From the IMG/VR virus record IMGVR_UViG_3300046660_000563, positions 1-25,626 of that record: 25,626 nt of DNA. One strand, 5' to 3'. The stretch is from a virus. Both the position numbers and the translations under genes were made by a program. The first letter of the stretch is position 1. Each line of letters begins with the position of its first letter. Below are positions 5,570 through 21,524 of the stretch, piece by piece. The notes under the pieces were generated by a model, which was not told the origin of the DNA, did not search any database, and saw only the letters and a list, made by a program, of their open reading frames with translations.

Positions 5570-5709
5570 TCGACGGGGGGGCTCGGGAGCGACTTCGGAC
5601 CTGGCTTGAGTACGTCGCCCAGTACGCCATCGACTGGCTTGATGACCTCGACGCCGCTGGCGACGAGCTTGAAGACGACGAGCTTGGCGACGAGTGCGCC
5701 GATGGATAG
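5566..5709 (+). CDS. Very acidic small protein (47 aa)
   Basis: Short frame ATG 5566 to TAG 5709, bridging two well-supported genes. The start overlaps the upstream stop by ATGA, and the end overlaps the methyltransferase start by 8 nt. The second half is extremely acidic (WLDDLDAAGDELEDDELGDE). Such a charge could make it a DNA mimic or a small inhibitor, but this is speculative. The overlapping arrangement is the main evidence that it is translated. Confidence 0.5.
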   Translation: MIDGGARERLRTWLEYVAQYAIDWLDDLDAAGDELEDDELGDECADG

Positions 5710-6385
5710 GCCCGCCGACTTCCGCGCGGTCATGGCCTCGCGCCTGCCCGCTGTCGACGACACCGACTTCTACCCGACGCCGCCGTGGGGCGCGCGAGCC
5801 GGTGGCGAGCTGGTTCGTCGGTTCGATCCGCGTCCCGTCGGGCGCTGGTGGGAACCGGCGTGCGGCGCGCTGCACATGACCCACGGCCTGAGCGACTACG
5901 CTCCCCAGCTGGTGGTCAGCGACGCCTATCGGTACGGATCGGGCTACCCGCTGTACGACTTCCGGTCCGACGCCCCGCCGCCGTTCGTGGCGGACTGGAT
6001 CGTCACCAATCCGCCCTTCCTGGACATCGAGCTGTTCATCCGCCGGGCCTACGCCCGGGCGCTGAGGGGCGTCGCCCTGCTGATGCGGGCCGCACTTCTC
6101 GAGACGGTGGGTCGGTACACCCTGCTCTACCGTGACTGCCCGCTGACCATCTTCGCGCCGTTCTCCGAGCGCCTGCCGATGCACAAGGGCCGGTACGAGG
6201 ACGACGGCAGCACCGCGACCTTCTACGCGTGGTTCATCTGGCTGAAGCCGGTGTTGCGGCCCCGGCGGTTCATGGCGCGCATCGGCGACGCCTACTACCC
6301 CGCCACGGTGCCGATCCCCCCGGGAACCAAGACACGCCTCTATCGACCTTCGGACGCTGCGTTCGCGGCGCGGGAGGCGGCATGA
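5702..6385 (+). CDS. Phage DNA N6-adenine methyltransferase-like protein (227 aa)
   Basis: ATG 5702 is chosen because the preceding 32 in-frame codons are a shadow of the acidic ORF. Key features are FYPTPPWG (23-30), typical of phage DNA methylases, an AdoMet-binding motif I EPACG (51-55), an acidic residue after strand 2 (VVSDAY, 72-77), and the catalytic motif IV NPPF (103-106) of amino-methyltransferases. It is compact and has no evident target-recognition domain. No matching restriction endonuclease is nearby, so it is probably an orphan enzyme that modifies phage DNA. Target sequence cannot be read from the gene. Confidence 0.8.
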   Translation: MDRPADFRAVMASRLPAVDDTDFYPTPPWGARAGGELVRRFDPRPVGRWWEPACGALHMTHGLSDYAPQLVVSDAYRYGSGYPLYDFRSDAPPPFVADWIVTNPPFLDIELFIRRAYARALRGVALLMRAALLETVGRYTLLYRDCPLTIFAPFSERLPMHKGRYEDDGSTATFYAWFIWLKPVLRPRRFMARIGDAYYPATVPIPPGTKTRLYRPSDAAFAAREAA

Positions 6386-8148
6386 CCTTCGCCGACGAAG
6401 CCCTCCGCCTCGCCCAGCTCGGCCTGGCCGTCTTCCCGCTCCAGCCCCGTTTGAAGAAGCCGTACGGCTGGTCGACCGGCCTTCACGCGGCCACCCTCGA
6501 CGCCGAGCTGATCGCAGGTCGCTGGTCCGGGCGTGGCGTGCTCCCCGTGAAGGAGGTGGCGGAGGACGCAAAGGACAAGCCGCCGCCCGGCCTGGTCATC
6601 CGCCCCCGCCCAAACTCGAACATCGGCATCGCCACCGGCCCGATCTCCGGCGTTTGGGTGTTCGATCTGGACGGCCAGACGGCCGAGGACGGCCTCGCGG
6701 CCTTGGTGGCCGTGCATGGCCCCCTGCCCGTCACGCCGGAGCAGATCACCGGCGGCGGGCGACAGCTGTTCTTCGCCTGGGACGACACCTGGCCGCTGCG
6801 CAACTCGGCCTCCAAGATCGGGCCAGGGATCGATGTGCGCGGCGACGGCGGCTATGTGGTCGCGCCGCCGTCGGTGCACCCGGGCGACGAGAAAAAGGGC
6901 ATACCGCCGGGGCGCATCTACACCTGGGCGCAAGGTCGCGCGCCATGGGATATCCCGTTTGCGGCGGCGCCCGAATGGCTGCTCAAGGCCGCTATGCCCG
7001 CGCCGGAGGCCGAACATAGGCCGCCGTCGCAGCCGAGGACGATCATCGAGGGGCGCGCCACCAAGTACGGCGAAGCGACCCTGGCGACGACTTGCGCCCG
7101 CATCGCGGCCACGCCGCCGGGCGGCCAAAACGAAGCGCTGTTCGGCTATGCCGCCTTCATCGGCGCGCGGATCGCGGGCAACGAGATCGAACACGCCTAC
7201 GGCCGGGCTGCCCTGATCGACGCCGGCATGCGCATGGCGCCGCGCGGCAAACCGTGGACGCTCAAGGACGTGGAGGGCACCGTCGATCGCGGGCTGGACA
7301 AGGGCGGGCTCCACCCGACCTCGGCTCCAGACCGGCCGACTTTCCAGCCTGCTCAACGGCGCGCGCCGCGCGTCGAGGCGTCAGCGGCGGAACGGGCGGT
7401 CGATATCCGCAGCGCGCGCCAATTGTGGGACGCGGCGCGGCCGGCCGACTGTGGCCTGTTCCGATCCTGGCTGCGCATCCATGGGCTGGACGCGCAGGGC
7501 CTTCCCCACGCCGTGGGCAGGCTGAGGGCCTATCAGCGCGCGCCGATCGGCGACGAGACGGGCCCGGCGATCCTGGTCCCTCTGAGCAGCGGCCTCGACG
7601 ACCTGCCCGACGCGTTGGCCATCCTGCCGCTGGACCCGCGCAACGACGGCCTGACGGACTTCGTCGGCGACCCCGCCGGGCGCGTGGCGGTGCTTGTCCC
7701 CTGGGGCGCCGGCGGCGACGTCGTGGTGACGACGGACTTTCAGGACGCCTGGGCGCTCGGCTCCAGCGCCGTGGAGGCGGAACACGACATGGGCGTGGTG
7801 ATCGCGCCGCTACGCACCACGCTGTCCGGCGCGGCTCTCGGGGATCGCTGGGGGCGGGTCGATCCGCGCACGCCGTTCCTCGATCCGGACAACCCGCCCT
7901 GGACCGCCCCGGGCATCGGGACGGCGTTTATCGCCGTCCGCGGTGACCTGGAGAACCCGCCGCTGAGGTCGCGCAAGGCCTGGGGCGGCACGGCGAGGGT
8001 CGACCTCCAGGGCGAGGCGGCGGCGCGATTCTACGGCGGTTTGGCCGATCAGGGGTGGCGGAAGGCGGGTGCGAACCAGGTTCGCATCCTGCGCCCCAGC
8101 GCGGGCGCGCGGGGCTTCAACGCCGGACGTAGTGGGAGGGGTGCGTAG
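6382..8148 (+). CDS. Bifunctional primase/polymerase (Prim-Pol) N-terminal domain protein (588 aa)
   Basis: The AEP-type Prim-Pol domain covers about residues 1-200. It shows ALRLAQLGLAVFPLQP at the start, NSNIGIATG (78-86), the metal-binding pair in WVFDLDG (Asp95, Asp97), TGGGRQLFF (123-131) and GIDVRGDGGYVVAPPSVHPG (149-168). Many relatives have His where Gln128 stands. About 25 residues appear inserted before NSNIGIATG. The C-terminal 380 residues lack a helicase; that is supplied by the next gene, which starts within the stop codon (TAGTG). Together the pair corresponds to a split P4-alpha-type primase-helicase for phage replication. A perfect-core dispersed palindrome encodes residues near the C-terminus (ANQVRI). 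Confidence 0.88.
   Translation: MTFADEALRLAQLGLAVFPLQPRLKKPYGWSTGLHAATLDAELIAGRWSGRGVLPVKEVAEDAKDKPPPGLVIRPRPNSNIGIATGPISGVWVFDLDGQTAEDGLAALVAVHGPLPVTPEQITGGGRQLFFAWDDTWPLRNSASKIGPGIDVRGDGGYVVAPPSVHPGDEKKGIPPGRIYTWAQGRAPWDIPFAAAPEWLLKAAMPAPEAEHRPPSQPRTIIEGRATKYGEATLATTCARIAATPPGGQNEALFGYAAFIGARIAGNEIEHAYGRAALIDAGMRMAPRGKPWTLKDVEGTVDRGLDKGGLHPTSAPDRPTFQPAQRRAPRVEASAAERAVDIRSARQLWDAARPADCGLFRSWLRIHGLDAQGLPHAVGRLRAYQRAPIGDETGPAILVPLSSGLDDLPDALAILPLDPRNDGLTDFVGDPAGRVAVLVPWGAGGDVVVTTDFQDAWALGSSAVEAEHDMGVVIAPLRTTLSGAALGDRWGRVDPRTPFLDPDNPPWTAPGIGTAFIAVRGDLENPPLRSRKAWGGTARVDLQGEAAARFYGGLADQGWRKAGANQVRILRPSAGARGFNAGRSGRGA
8068..8088. repeat. Dispersed palindrome, copy 3 (perfect core)
   Basis: Core CGAACC-A-GGTTCG at 8072-8084, with GGTG and CATC flanks. 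It is about 60 nt before the stop of the Prim-Pol gene and is read in frame as ANQVRI. Confidence 0.8.
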
Positions 8149-9806
8149 TGGCCGACAAAGACAATCCATTCGGCGCGGACGTGACCGAAGTCCCGGCCGG
8201 GGTGAGCCCCGAGGACATGGCCGGGTTTCCGCTCAACGATCTGGGCAACGCCATGCGGCTTATCCTGCTGGCGGGTGGCGCCGTGGGCAAGGACGGCCAG
8301 GTCGACTCCAAGCACTCGCGCCTGCTGTTCCAGCTCGGCGGCGGTTGGGTCGGCTTCAACGGCAAGTATTGGGATCGCAAGCACGGCGAAGACCTGGCCC
8401 GCCGGCTGGCCCACGAGACCTCGCGCCTGATCCCTGCCCTGTGGGACCACGTCAAGGACCGCGTGCCGCCCAAGGACTTCTTCCGGTTCGCCAACGACAC
8501 CGGCTCGGCGGGCAAGACCTCGGCTATGCTCCGCCAGGCCCAGTCATACCTGACCGTCGAAATCGACGTGTTTGACCGCGACCCCATGGCCATCAACTGC
8601 CTGAACGGCACGGTGAAGATGCGCTGGACGCCACCAGCTGGCGGCAAGCCCGGCAAGTTCGATGTACGGCTCCAGCCGCATGAACCGGCCGACCGGATCA
8701 CGCGATGCACGACGGTGGCGTACAACAAGGCTGCCGACGCGCCGCTCTACAAGCGCGTGGCCCAGGAGAGCCTGGCCGACCCGGAGGAGCGCGGCCACTT
8801 CAAGCGCCTGATGGGCTATTCCAGCACGGGCTGCACCTATGAGCAGGCGTTCTTCCTGGCCCAGGGCCGTGGGCGGGACGGCAAGTCCACCCTGCTGGAC
8901 GCGGCGCGGGAGACCCTGGGCAGCTACGGCATGGCCGGCACGCCCCAAACCTTCCTGGAGGGCGGGATCCAGAATGGATCGGGGCCGTCTCCCGACCTGA
9001 TCGCCCTCAGCGGCGACGTTCGCCTGGCCGTGCTCTCGGAACCGCCTCGGGGCTCGAAACTGAACGAAGGCCGCTTGAAGGCCTGGACCTCGGGGACGCC
9101 GATCCAGGCCCGCGACCTCAACGCCAAACCCATCGAGTTTCGTCCGATCGCCAAACTGTTCTGGGAGTGCAACGCCTTCCCGGTGGCCCGTGGCGACGAC
9201 GACGGCATCTGGCGGCGCATCTACCCCGTGCTCTTCCGCCGCCAGGTGCCCAAGGAAGAGATCGACCGGACGCTCCCGACCAAGCTGCTCAAGGAGCGCG
9301 CCGGCATCCTCAACTGGCTTATCGAGGGCGTCGGCGACTGGTGCGCCAGGGGGCTCGATCAGCCCAACAGCTACCGCGATGCGCTGGAGGACTACCGCAA
9401 GGCCTCCAGCCCGTTCGGCGACTGGCTGAGCGAACGGTGCGTGACCGGCGAGCCCGCCAAGGGCGAGCGCGAGCTGTCCGGCGAGCTCTACGCCAGCTTC
9501 AAGGAATGGTCCGAGGAACAGGGCCACGAGAAGATCATGTCCACCCGGGCCTTCGGCGACGCCCTGCGCGACCGCCAGGTGGCCTTGGCGGGCAAGGATG
9601 CGGGCGGCCGGAAGTATCGCGGCCCGATCCGCCTGAAGACCCTGGAGGAGCGCGCCGCCGACAACGCCGACGCGCCGCCCGCCCCCGCGCCGGTTACGCC
9701 CCCCGTGGGCGCCGGTGGCCTGGAATCCGCCGATCCCTATGCGGACGTCTTCCCCGACAGCGACGTCGTCTGGCCCGAAAACCCCGACGCGGAGGACGAC
9801 CAGTGA
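8148..9806 (+). CDS. Phage/plasmid primase-type SF3 DNA helicase (P4/D5 family, 552 aa)
   Basis: GTG 8148 overlaps the previous TAG by one base, with a strong purine-rich ribosome site just upstream. The D5-like N-terminal region covers about residues 100-225. The superfamily 3 helicase core follows: Walker A GRGRDGKST (240-248), Walker B VLSEPPRG (295-302, Glu298), and motif C with Asn342 followed by GIWRRIYPVLF (353-363), which holds the likely arginine finger. The C-terminal 60 residues are proline- and acid-rich and probably disordered. It unwinds DNA as a hexamer at the phage origin, working with the Prim-Pol next door. The ACGGACA repeat cluster directly downstream is a likely binding region. 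Confidence 0.92.
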   Translation: MADKDNPFGADVTEVPAGVSPEDMAGFPLNDLGNAMRLILLAGGAVGKDGQVDSKHSRLLFQLGGGWVGFNGKYWDRKHGEDLARRLAHETSRLIPALWDHVKDRVPPKDFFRFANDTGSAGKTSAMLRQAQSYLTVEIDVFDRDPMAINCLNGTVKMRWTPPAGGKPGKFDVRLQPHEPADRITRCTTVAYNKAADAPLYKRVAQESLADPEERGHFKRLMGYSSTGCTYEQAFFLAQGRGRDGKSTLLDAARETLGSYGMAGTPQTFLEGGIQNGSGPSPDLIALSGDVRLAVLSEPPRGSKLNEGRLKAWTSGTPIQARDLNAKPIEFRPIAKLFWECNAFPVARGDDDGIWRRIYPVLFRRQVPKEEIDRTLPTKLLKERAGILNWLIEGVGDWCARGLDQPNSYRDALEDYRKASSPFGDWLSERCVTGEPAKGERELSGELYASFKEWSEEQGHEKIMSTRAFGDALRDRQVALAGKDAGGRKYRGPIRLKTLEERAADNADAPPAPAPVTPPVGAGGLESADPYADVFPDSDVVWPENPDAEDDQ

Positions 9807-9985
9807 TCGCCCCTCGAACGGACATTGACGGACAGACGGACAATCACGTTTGGGCGGTGGGGACGCGCGAGGGCCGGGGCCGGACGTTTGATTGTTCGGC
9901 CGACGCGGAATGTCCGTCCGCTAAGGCCCTGATTTCGCGCCGGAAACGGACAGAACGGACATTCCGGACAGTTGGGCCGCCGTAG
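9803..9985 (+). CDS. Short ORF across the repeat cluster, possibly not functional (60 aa)
   Basis: GTG 9803 overlaps the helicase stop and follows GGAGG, so translation is plausible. However, the 60-residue product is dominated by peptides written by the ACGGACA repeats in different frames (RTDIDGQTD, ERTFRTV). It has no recognisable fold. The DNA repeats continue past its stop, which argues that the sequence is kept for its DNA rather than its protein. Confidence 0.35.
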   Translation: MIAPRTDIDGQTDNHVWAVGTREGRGRTFDCSADAECPSAKALISRRKRTERTFRTVGPP

Positions 9986-10059
9986 GTGGCTATGGGGGCG
10001 TGATGCGGGCGCGAGTGGTGTGCGTCCACTCATCTGTCCGTCCGTCCGTCTGTGTCCGT
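9818..10059. repeat. ACGGACA iteron cluster, candidate replication origin
   Basis: The heptamer ACGGACA occurs at 9818, 9828, 9836, 9946 and 9955, with a one-mismatch copy at 9964. In inverse orientation (TGTCCGT) it occurs at 9911, 10035 and 10053. The spacing of direct copies is 8-10 nt, about one helical turn. A TCCG-repeat stretch lies at 10038-10049. The cluster immediately follows the SF3 helicase gene, as the iterons bound by P4 alpha lie near its gene. An origin is inferred. Confidence 0.7.
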
Positions 10060-10093
10060 CGCTTTGCCTTCCCTTCTGACCCTTGGTCTTAAA

Positions 10094-10930
10094 ATGACAT
10101 TCATCGAGAGAGAAAGAACCGAAACCCTGGCGGAGCATCTGCTCCGCAACGCCGATCACCTCGGCTTGTCCGAGGATCACCGGTCGCGGCTGCTGGCCGC
10201 GTTCCGCCAGGAGCAGGGGCCGTTCAAGACCAGGGCCGGCAAGCGGGAGGCGCTGGCCGCCGCCGCCGCCGTGGCCAGCGCCATCCACGCCGATCTCACG
10301 GGCGCTGCGTCGGGCGCGGTGGCCTGGGCGGCGGCGGCGCACCTTGCCGGGCTGCGGGCAGATCGGGAGGCCCTGCTCGGCGTTCGCTGTCGCACCGACG
10401 CCCAGGAGCGGGCGCTGCGGATGCTGGAGCGCCAGGTCAAGGCGGCGACCTCGGGCCGGGCGGCGGATCGGGTCGATGCCGCCACACCCATGGGCCTGCG
10501 CCGGATCAAGGCCCGTGACGGCCTTGCCTCCCTGCTCGAAGCCAAGGCCATCACCGAGGAGGAGGCCAAGATCGGATTGGCCTACCGCATGCTGTTCGAG
10601 GAGTGCGGACCAGGTTCGGGTCTGGGCTCGCAGCTGGAGGAGCGGCCTCGCGCCATCCGGGCCAGCACCCACGGCGTGGTCGCCCATGGCCTGCTCAAGG
10701 CCTATGCGGGTGTCCGCCTCACCGGTGTCGACCGGGCTGTCCAGCACGCCGACGCCTCGGGGCGCGCCCTCGCCATCCTTCGGGCGGTGGCGGGCGAGGG
10801 GCGGACCATCCGCTCGCTGGGCGGCGGCGGCAACACCCGGGACGCCAACCTTGAGGCCCTAAAGCGTGGGCTCCGCGTCGCTTTAGCTGCACTCAAGGCC
10901 AACGGCGGCTTGCGAATCGGGGGCCACTAA
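10094..10930 (+). CDS. Protein of unknown function at the end of the early operon (278 aa)
   Basis: ATG 10094 sits in TTAAAATG without a visible ribosome site; a GTG at 10052 in the same frame lies in the repeat cluster and has none either. The product is alanine-rich and helical. The N-terminal part (HLLRNADHLGLSEDHRSRLL) looks like a small helical domain. The C-terminal about 70 residues (GLLKAYAGVRLTGVDRAVQH; ILRAVAGEGRTIRSLGGGGN) resemble a DNA-binding end of phage regulators. Being the last gene before the terminator and late operon, a late-gene activator is a reasonable guess but is not shown. A degenerate copy of the dispersed palindrome falls inside it. Confidence 0.75.
   Translation: MTFIERERTETLAEHLLRNADHLGLSEDHRSRLLAAFRQEQGPFKTRAGKREALAAAAAVASAIHADLTGAASGAVAWAAAAHLAGLRADREALLGVRCRTDAQERALRMLERQVKAATSGRAADRVDAATPMGLRRIKARDGLASLLEAKAITEEEAKIGLAYRMLFEECGPGSGLGSQLEERPRAIRASTHGVVAHGLLKAYAGVRLTGVDRAVQHADASGRALAILRAVAGEGRTIRSLGGGGNTRDANLEALKRGLRVALAALKANGGLRIGGH
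10602..10622. repeat. Dispersed palindrome, copy 4 (one mismatch)
   Basis: Core CGGACC-A-GGTTCG at 10606-10618, one change from consensus, with GTG and GGTC flanks. It is internal to the unknown gene at 10094-10930. Confidence 0.5.
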
Positions 10931-21324: not shown

Positions 21325-21524
21325 CCGAGGAGGGCAAGGCCGTCTGGGCGGCCTTGCAGCTGTGTGAGCGCCAGCTGCGCAGCGACGTGAACGGACCCTA
21401 CGCCCTGGATCTTCCCGCCGTCGCCCTGGTCGCCCAGAGCCTGGATGTCGACGTCGCCATGACGATCGAGGTCGCGGCGGACATCGAGCCCTACATCGTC
21501 TTCGCCTGGAGGCCACGGACATGA
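20788..21524 (+). CDS. Tail assembly chaperone, -1 frameshift form (gpGT-like, about 245 aa)
   Basis: Slipping by -1 at 21129-21135 joins the first 116 residues to 129 residues in the alternative frame, ending at TGA 21522-21524, which overlaps the tape measure ATG. The added part looks like real protein: a cysteine cluster in RDFCAACPGLCDGPEVEDKC plus two further Cys, then KAVWAALQLCERQLRSD and LDLPAVALVAQSLDVDVAMT helices. It has no plausible start codon and ribosome site of its own at its 5' end. In lambda, gpGT is made the same way in a few percent of translations. The match of slippery heptamer phase, location and overlapping stop makes this a strong prediction. Confidence 0.8.
21129..21135 (+). 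promoter_or_regulatory. -1 ribosomal frameshift slippery site A AAA AAC
   Basis: The zero-frame codons GAA-AAA-AAC place the heptamer A AAA AAC in the correct phase for tandem -1 slippage. It is within a run of seven A in otherwise GC-rich DNA. GGCG-GTA-CGCC a little downstream could form a short stimulatory hairpin. Confidence 0.8.

Follow-up and report, generated by a model that had tools for sequence, protein, structure and literature searches.

The window, i.e., the whole 25,626-nt stretch of viral DNA analysed here, carries an array of about 11 short repeats on both strands (positions 9818–10059) directly 3′ of the gene for a D5/P4-family SF3 helicase, and this array is very likely a replication origin or its initiator-binding core. 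The helicase encoded upstream would bind the sites and load itself onto the DNA, and a separately encoded Prim-Pol primase would prime synthesis. An earlier note on this DNA had proposed a probable replication origin beside the SF3 helicase, and the proposal gains support from conservation of the repeat cluster in relatives and from covariation between repeats and helicase. Sequence comparison supports the array, its layout, its family-wide position 3′ of the helicase gene, and the link between repeat bases and residues 467 and 483 of the helicase; from these we infer that the protein binds the sites, loads itself, and melts DNA, and that the origin fires. The array is read as an origin because of the analogy with SaPI Rep, SCCmec Cch2, and PICI origins.

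We know of no mapped origin for these uncultured tailed phages, and for a large set of them the array would supply a candidate. The origin specificity of self-loading SF3 helicases can thereby be phrased as a testable residue-to-base code with natural variants, and the combination of a fixed layout with a changing sequence provides a constraint on how a helicase ring may assemble on iterons.

The repeat array and its genomic setting

The window derives from a tailed phage, encoding a lambda-type terminase, terL, portal, capsid-protease, head genes, tail tube, and tape measure. The Prim-Pol primase gene (6229–8148, + strand; PF09250, E 2.2e-34) matches the N-terminal part of phrog_1156, and the proposed origin-binding initiator, the helicase, is encoded by the adjacent gene (8148–9806, + strand; PF08706, E 2.6e-19; phrog_1156), so that primase and helicase are separate proteins, as had been read from the sequence before. 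Against TIGR01613, the P4-family primase C-terminal domain, the helicase scores 174.7 bits (cut-off 108.7), and its AF2 model (pLDDT 84) resembles D5-type helicases. Its C-terminus is predicted to form a winged-helix domain (residues 424–506, 9417–9665, + strand; pLDDT 93.5 when modelled alone), the proposed iteron-binding part of the protein. A DNA methyltransferase-like gene (phrog_799, 5606–6385) overlaps the start of the primase gene and has an upstream homologue in 19 of 35 well-covered relatives. Downstream of the array follows a gene at 10094–10930 (+ strand), whose start is placed at 10094 and not at 10052 based on its conservation in an alignment with L002–L004. A Pfam search with this gene gave no match, and homologues occur in 7 of the 35 well-covered array loci.

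Exact copies of the heptamer ACGGACA were searched over all 25,626 nt. Five direct copies (9818, 9828, 9836, 9946, and 9955, + strand) and three inverse copies (9911, 10035, and 10053, − strand) fall within 242 nt, and the sole further copy lies at 21515. Measured from start to start, the first three direct copies are separated by 10 and 8 nt, the later ones by 9 and 9 nt. Shuffled sequences yield 2.78 copies per window, or about 0.026 per 242 nt, and the cluster score of 17.1, corrected for picking the best among all heptamers, compares with a maximum of 7.97 over all heptamers in 200 simulated windows. Our recount thus reproduces what had been reported from the sequence: eight exact heptamers, direct copies 8–10 nt apart, and a chance expectation near 0.03. 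The single near copy reported then is CCGGACA at 9964–9970, and it is joined by CCGTCCGT around 10041–10050 and by weaker sites around 9880 and 9892, bringing the array to about 11–12 sites, distributed over both strands in a fixed layout.

These sites extend from +11 to +253 relative to the helicase stop codon and form four groups. The first direct triplet (9818, 9828, and 9836; 9818–9842, + strand; about +11, +21, and +29) retains its layout in relatives. A middle group at 9880–9917 consists of a weak direct site near 9880, a weak inverse site near 9892, and the exact inverse copy at 9911–9917 (+73, +83 inverse, and +101 inverse), and these positions are occupied in relatives too. The second direct triplet (9946, 9955, and the near copy at 9964; 9946–9970, + strand; +139, +148, and +157) has a 9-bp pitch that is kept across motif types, and the inverse group (10035, a near copy around 10043, and 10053; 10035–10059, − strand) corresponds to an inverse pair at +225 and +233, found in relatives as well. 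Past the last inverse sites, a relatively AT-rich stretch (10060–10119; 45–60% AT in 20-nt bins vs. ~30% around it) is a candidate unwinding site and coincides with the start region of the next gene. This AT maximum lies outside the last iteron set, and between the sets AT content is just 30–35%. The 25.6 kb available as an IMG/VR virus record, probably a fragment, contain one iteron cluster, and GC skew calculated along them does not turn at the array. A search of a phage collection returned no DNA matches to the array.

From this arrangement a sequence of steps can be proposed. Helicase subunits would bind the ~11 sites through the C-terminal winged helix (recognition helix ~466–475, wing ~479–492), oligomerise on the array, melt nearby DNA, and load themselves, after which the neighbouring Prim-Pol (6229–8148) would prime.

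A 60-codon open frame (9803–9985, + strand), whose GTG overlaps the helicase stop, runs across the array. As a protein gene it was rejected by a codon-position test and by closure of the frame in relatives. The frame is open in 17/17 relatives of the window's clade and in four of another clade, as would be expected if the repeats were a by-product of a conserved small protein, but such a protein is hardly credible because substitutions are spread flatly over its codon positions (11/36, 9/39, and 12/38, compared with 43, 28, and 165 for the helicase of the same pair) and because 11 other relatives retain the array with a closed frame. The heptamer is moreover read in several codon phases (TD, GQ, and RT), and the last iteron sites lie outside the frame. 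The earlier note had already doubted this frame and held that coding does not explain the heptamers, which agrees with the absence of codon-position bias. Persistence of the open frame in the clade is perhaps due to chance, or perhaps to a requirement that translation or transcription pass through the array.

Conservation of the array and of its layout

The association between array and helicase family was recovered from both directions. A blind scan of 2.9 million viral contigs for ACGGACA-N3-ACGGACA-N-ACGGACA, made with no reference to any gene, returned 11 contigs, and a homologous helicase is encoded directly upstream in all 11. Among 71 helicase loci collected starting from the helicase (window included), the top heptamer cluster of the locus is located at the helicase stop codon in 56 (49/56 at an identity of at least 36%), where chance would give about 5% of loci. 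Absence of the cluster from close relatives that keep the helicase gene had been named as a finding that would speak against an origin; L002, L003, and L004 (78–90% identity) keep the cluster, as do most helicase relatives down to ~36% identity. Clusters at the helicase stop also occur in Bacillus phage phi105 and Microcystis phage Mae-JY02, while a search at the helicase of Microbacterium phage Elva found none and that of BPP-1 a weak one. Near the helicases of L064 and L073 a clear array is absent. In four loci (L039, L053, L061, and L070) the array lies 0.5–3.5 kb from the helicase, the largest distance being that of L053 (3.5 kb), and at least in L053 and L070 the displaced array has a recognisable layout.

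Two further features were observed in individual loci. L009, L015, and L010 contain a second ACGGACA triplet (or pair) inside the start of the helicase gene (L015:5705–5729, coding TDINGQTDIP), and the helicase genes of L014, L026, L033, and L054 carry stops or frameshifts beside their arrays, reflecting either decay or sequencing errors.

The gene neighbourhood also bears on whether the array could instead be a packaging site (cos or pac) bound by the small terminase. In the window terS (11132) and terL (11778) do come after the array, terS at a distance of 1.1 kb, but this function is highly improbable because homologues of the window's terS occur near the array in just 3/35 loci; terL homologues do so in 14/35, and divergent terminases could be missed in both counts. 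Covariation of the repeat sequence with helicase residues, detailed below, likewise argues against packaging.

ACGGACA, a motif that the first reading of the sequence did not recognise, turned out to be one lineage's version of a family-wide array. Depending on the lineage, sites read ACGGACA, ACGGACGAT, ACGGAGGAT, ACAGACAGT, TGAACAGT, or CCAGACA, and they follow the same plan of positions and orientations. When the window is set beside group A relatives that have other motifs, 9–10 of ~10–13 sites coincide within 2 bp, compared with a mean of ~4 and a maximum of 7 in randomised layouts, of which 0/300 reach the observed value. The more distant groups B and C have fixed layouts of their own, each with several motif versions. 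Related sequences inherit a shared layout; what carries information is the joint change of letters at all sites. Among the variants, L149, L150, L165, and L093 have a wing shorter by two residues and repeats with G at base 2 (AGGGACAGT, GGGGACAGA, and, judged by eye in L093, GGGGAnAGTT). In one Caulobacter vibrioides genome, that of DSM 9893 (L086 and L088), there are two such helicases, which neighbour GACGGACATT and CCGAACAGT sites, respectively.

Covariation of helicase residues with repeat bases

Across ~70 relatives, the comparative evidence points to the helicase itself as the reader of the repeats. The covariation analysis covered 50 non-duplicate sequences; its tree was calculated from residues 20–430, leaving out the C-terminal domain. 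A at base 4 is accompanied by R483 in 7/7 cases, and R483 occurs with G at base 4 in 0/43. For base 4, residue 483 outperforms every other helicase column (five parsimony changes), and in tree-aware simulations evaluated family-wise 2/400 reach the observed association. For base 7 the best column is residue 467 (10/400 simulations), K467 going with G7. Sister pairs fit this code, for example L028 (K467, ACGGACGAT) and L090 (A467, ACGGACA), as well as L095 (R483, TGAACA) and L031 (K483, CGGACA). Exceptions are L150, with K467 and A7, and L038 and L045, with A467 and G7. A search for a single helicase residue significantly associated with base 3 found none; post hoc, base 3 appears linked to wing length and to L/M at 483.

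A rule written beforehand held in the new loci L088, L090, L094, L095, and L096 and missed in L093. L090 tests residue 483 alone, its A467 being outside the pre-stated rule, and this held-out test is not independent of the statistics because the 50 sequences include the held-out loci. The reverse approach, starting from repeat patterns, gave ten matches for ACGGACG. Among these, the new arrays L188 and L191, neither of which entered the statistics, both belong to helicases with K467; L190 and L192 are not arrays, and L194 is cut off before the helicase. L190 and L192 each have three isolated ACGGACG copies beside tRNA-like sequence, and a search of these loci found no helicase of this family. 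The corresponding scan for TGAACA was uninformative for R483 because the pattern is too unspecific, returning 120 mostly unrelated stretches, and that for CAGACAGTNCAGACAGTNCAGACAG, used in place of ACAGACA, recovered known arrays plus one unrelated stretch (L317) and therefore adds no independent test.

Both covarying residues fall inside the predicted winged helix. R467 (codon 9546–9548, + strand) covaries with iteron base 7 and stands at the N-terminus of the recognition helix (466–475), and K483 (codon 9594–9596, + strand) covaries with base 4 and ends the first wing strand (479–483). The best fold match of this domain in the PDB is the DNA-binding domain of RFX1 (1dp7; TM 0.66, E 0.005), a winged helix that uses its wing in the major groove. 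The origin-binding domain of P4 alpha (1ka8) is a weak profile match (E 0.21). Taken together, residue 483 (K, R, or L/M) and residue 467 (R/T vs. K) probably set bases 4 and 7, and lineages would have repeatedly rewritten their ~11 sites together while keeping the layout. Distinct repeats might stop co-resident elements from using each other's origin and could in this way shield the origins of co-resident prophages.

Covariation with helicase residues also weighs against an origin or RNA element in which folding matters rather than site sequence. A stem-loop of this kind, 3′ of the replication gene, has been put forward for pRN1 and for Bordetella phage BIP-1 (PMC4234260), and the array region folds as RNA better than shuffled sequences (z −3.0), a value that arises because inverse copies create such a fold automatically. 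The direct triplets, in which pairing is not required, also change together, the base changes follow helicase residues, and an Rfam search of the region gave no match. The data can be explained without a stem-loop mechanism, which is very improbable here.

Covariation tells who reads the sites but not what for, and the array sits in the spacer before the next gene. The helicase could thus bind it as an autoregulatory operator that controls downstream genes or copy number, with replication starting elsewhere; in plasmids, iterons often serve both as origin and in regulation. We consider a purely regulatory array unlikely. Searches at the array found no promoter or terminator, including no sigma-70-like promoter, a type from which alphaproteobacterial promoters may differ. 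The gene downstream varies between loci, that of the window having a homologue in 7/35 as given above, and the array is displaced from the helicase in the four loci described. In addition, the nearest precedents are origins (PMC6092414, PMC7581432).

Relation to known replicons

An origin directly 3′ of the helicase gene has its closest precedents in SaPI/PICI Rep and SCCmec Cch2. Through their C-terminal domains, SaPI Rep and Cch2 bind iterons that lie 3′ of the gene encoding the protein (PMC7581432), and the PICI ori, immediately 3′ of rep, has been shown to be functional and drives plasmid replication (PMC6092414). The window shares with these rep-ori modules (PMC6092414, PMC7581432) an initiator helicase, a primase gene or domain before it, an array directly after the gene, and a C-terminal DNA-binding domain, which is predicted for the window's helicase; this helicase is also of the D5_N/Primase_Cterm (SF3) kind that a rep-ori replicon requires. 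SaPIs and PICIs are satellites, however, whereas the window comes from a tailed phage and encodes terminase, portal, capsid, and tape-measure proteins, and its primase and helicase are encoded by separate genes. PICI origins have their AT-rich stretch between two iteron sets, while that of the window lies outside the sets, and both the sequence and the layout of the repeats are particular to the window's helicase family. SCCmec Cch2 (PMC7581432) is likewise a D5_N/Primase_Cterm helicase with a separately encoded partner primase, and in vitro its C-terminal domain (residues 400–538) binds the iterons found downstream of the gene (PMC7581432). It differs in having three short AAGTG iterons, whereas the window's array has ~11 sites, placed on either strand at set positions.

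Phage P4 alpha, with which the first reading had compared the window, is an apt comparison given the TIGR01613 score and the covariation of predicted winged-helix residues with the repeats. Both are P4-family helicases in which a winged-helix origin-binding domain reads repeats, by prediction in the window, and this likeness stands although P4 gives way to SaPI/PICI Rep and Cch2 as the closest precedent. In P4, primase, helicase, and origin-binding domain are fused in the single protein alpha, and two distinct sites, ori and crr, are required; the proteins of the window are split, and its available fragment has one cluster. The pRN1 protein ORF904 and the proposed origin of Bordetella phage BIP-1 (PMC4234260) resemble the window in that the origin region closely follows the gene for a primase-helicase containing a winged helix, but a large stem-loop is essential in pRN1 (PMC4234260), whereas the window has iterons in both orientations whose sequence varies with helicase residues. 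In kind, the array and its helicase probably belong to the already known rep-ori replicon; what is new is its variant in full tailed phages.
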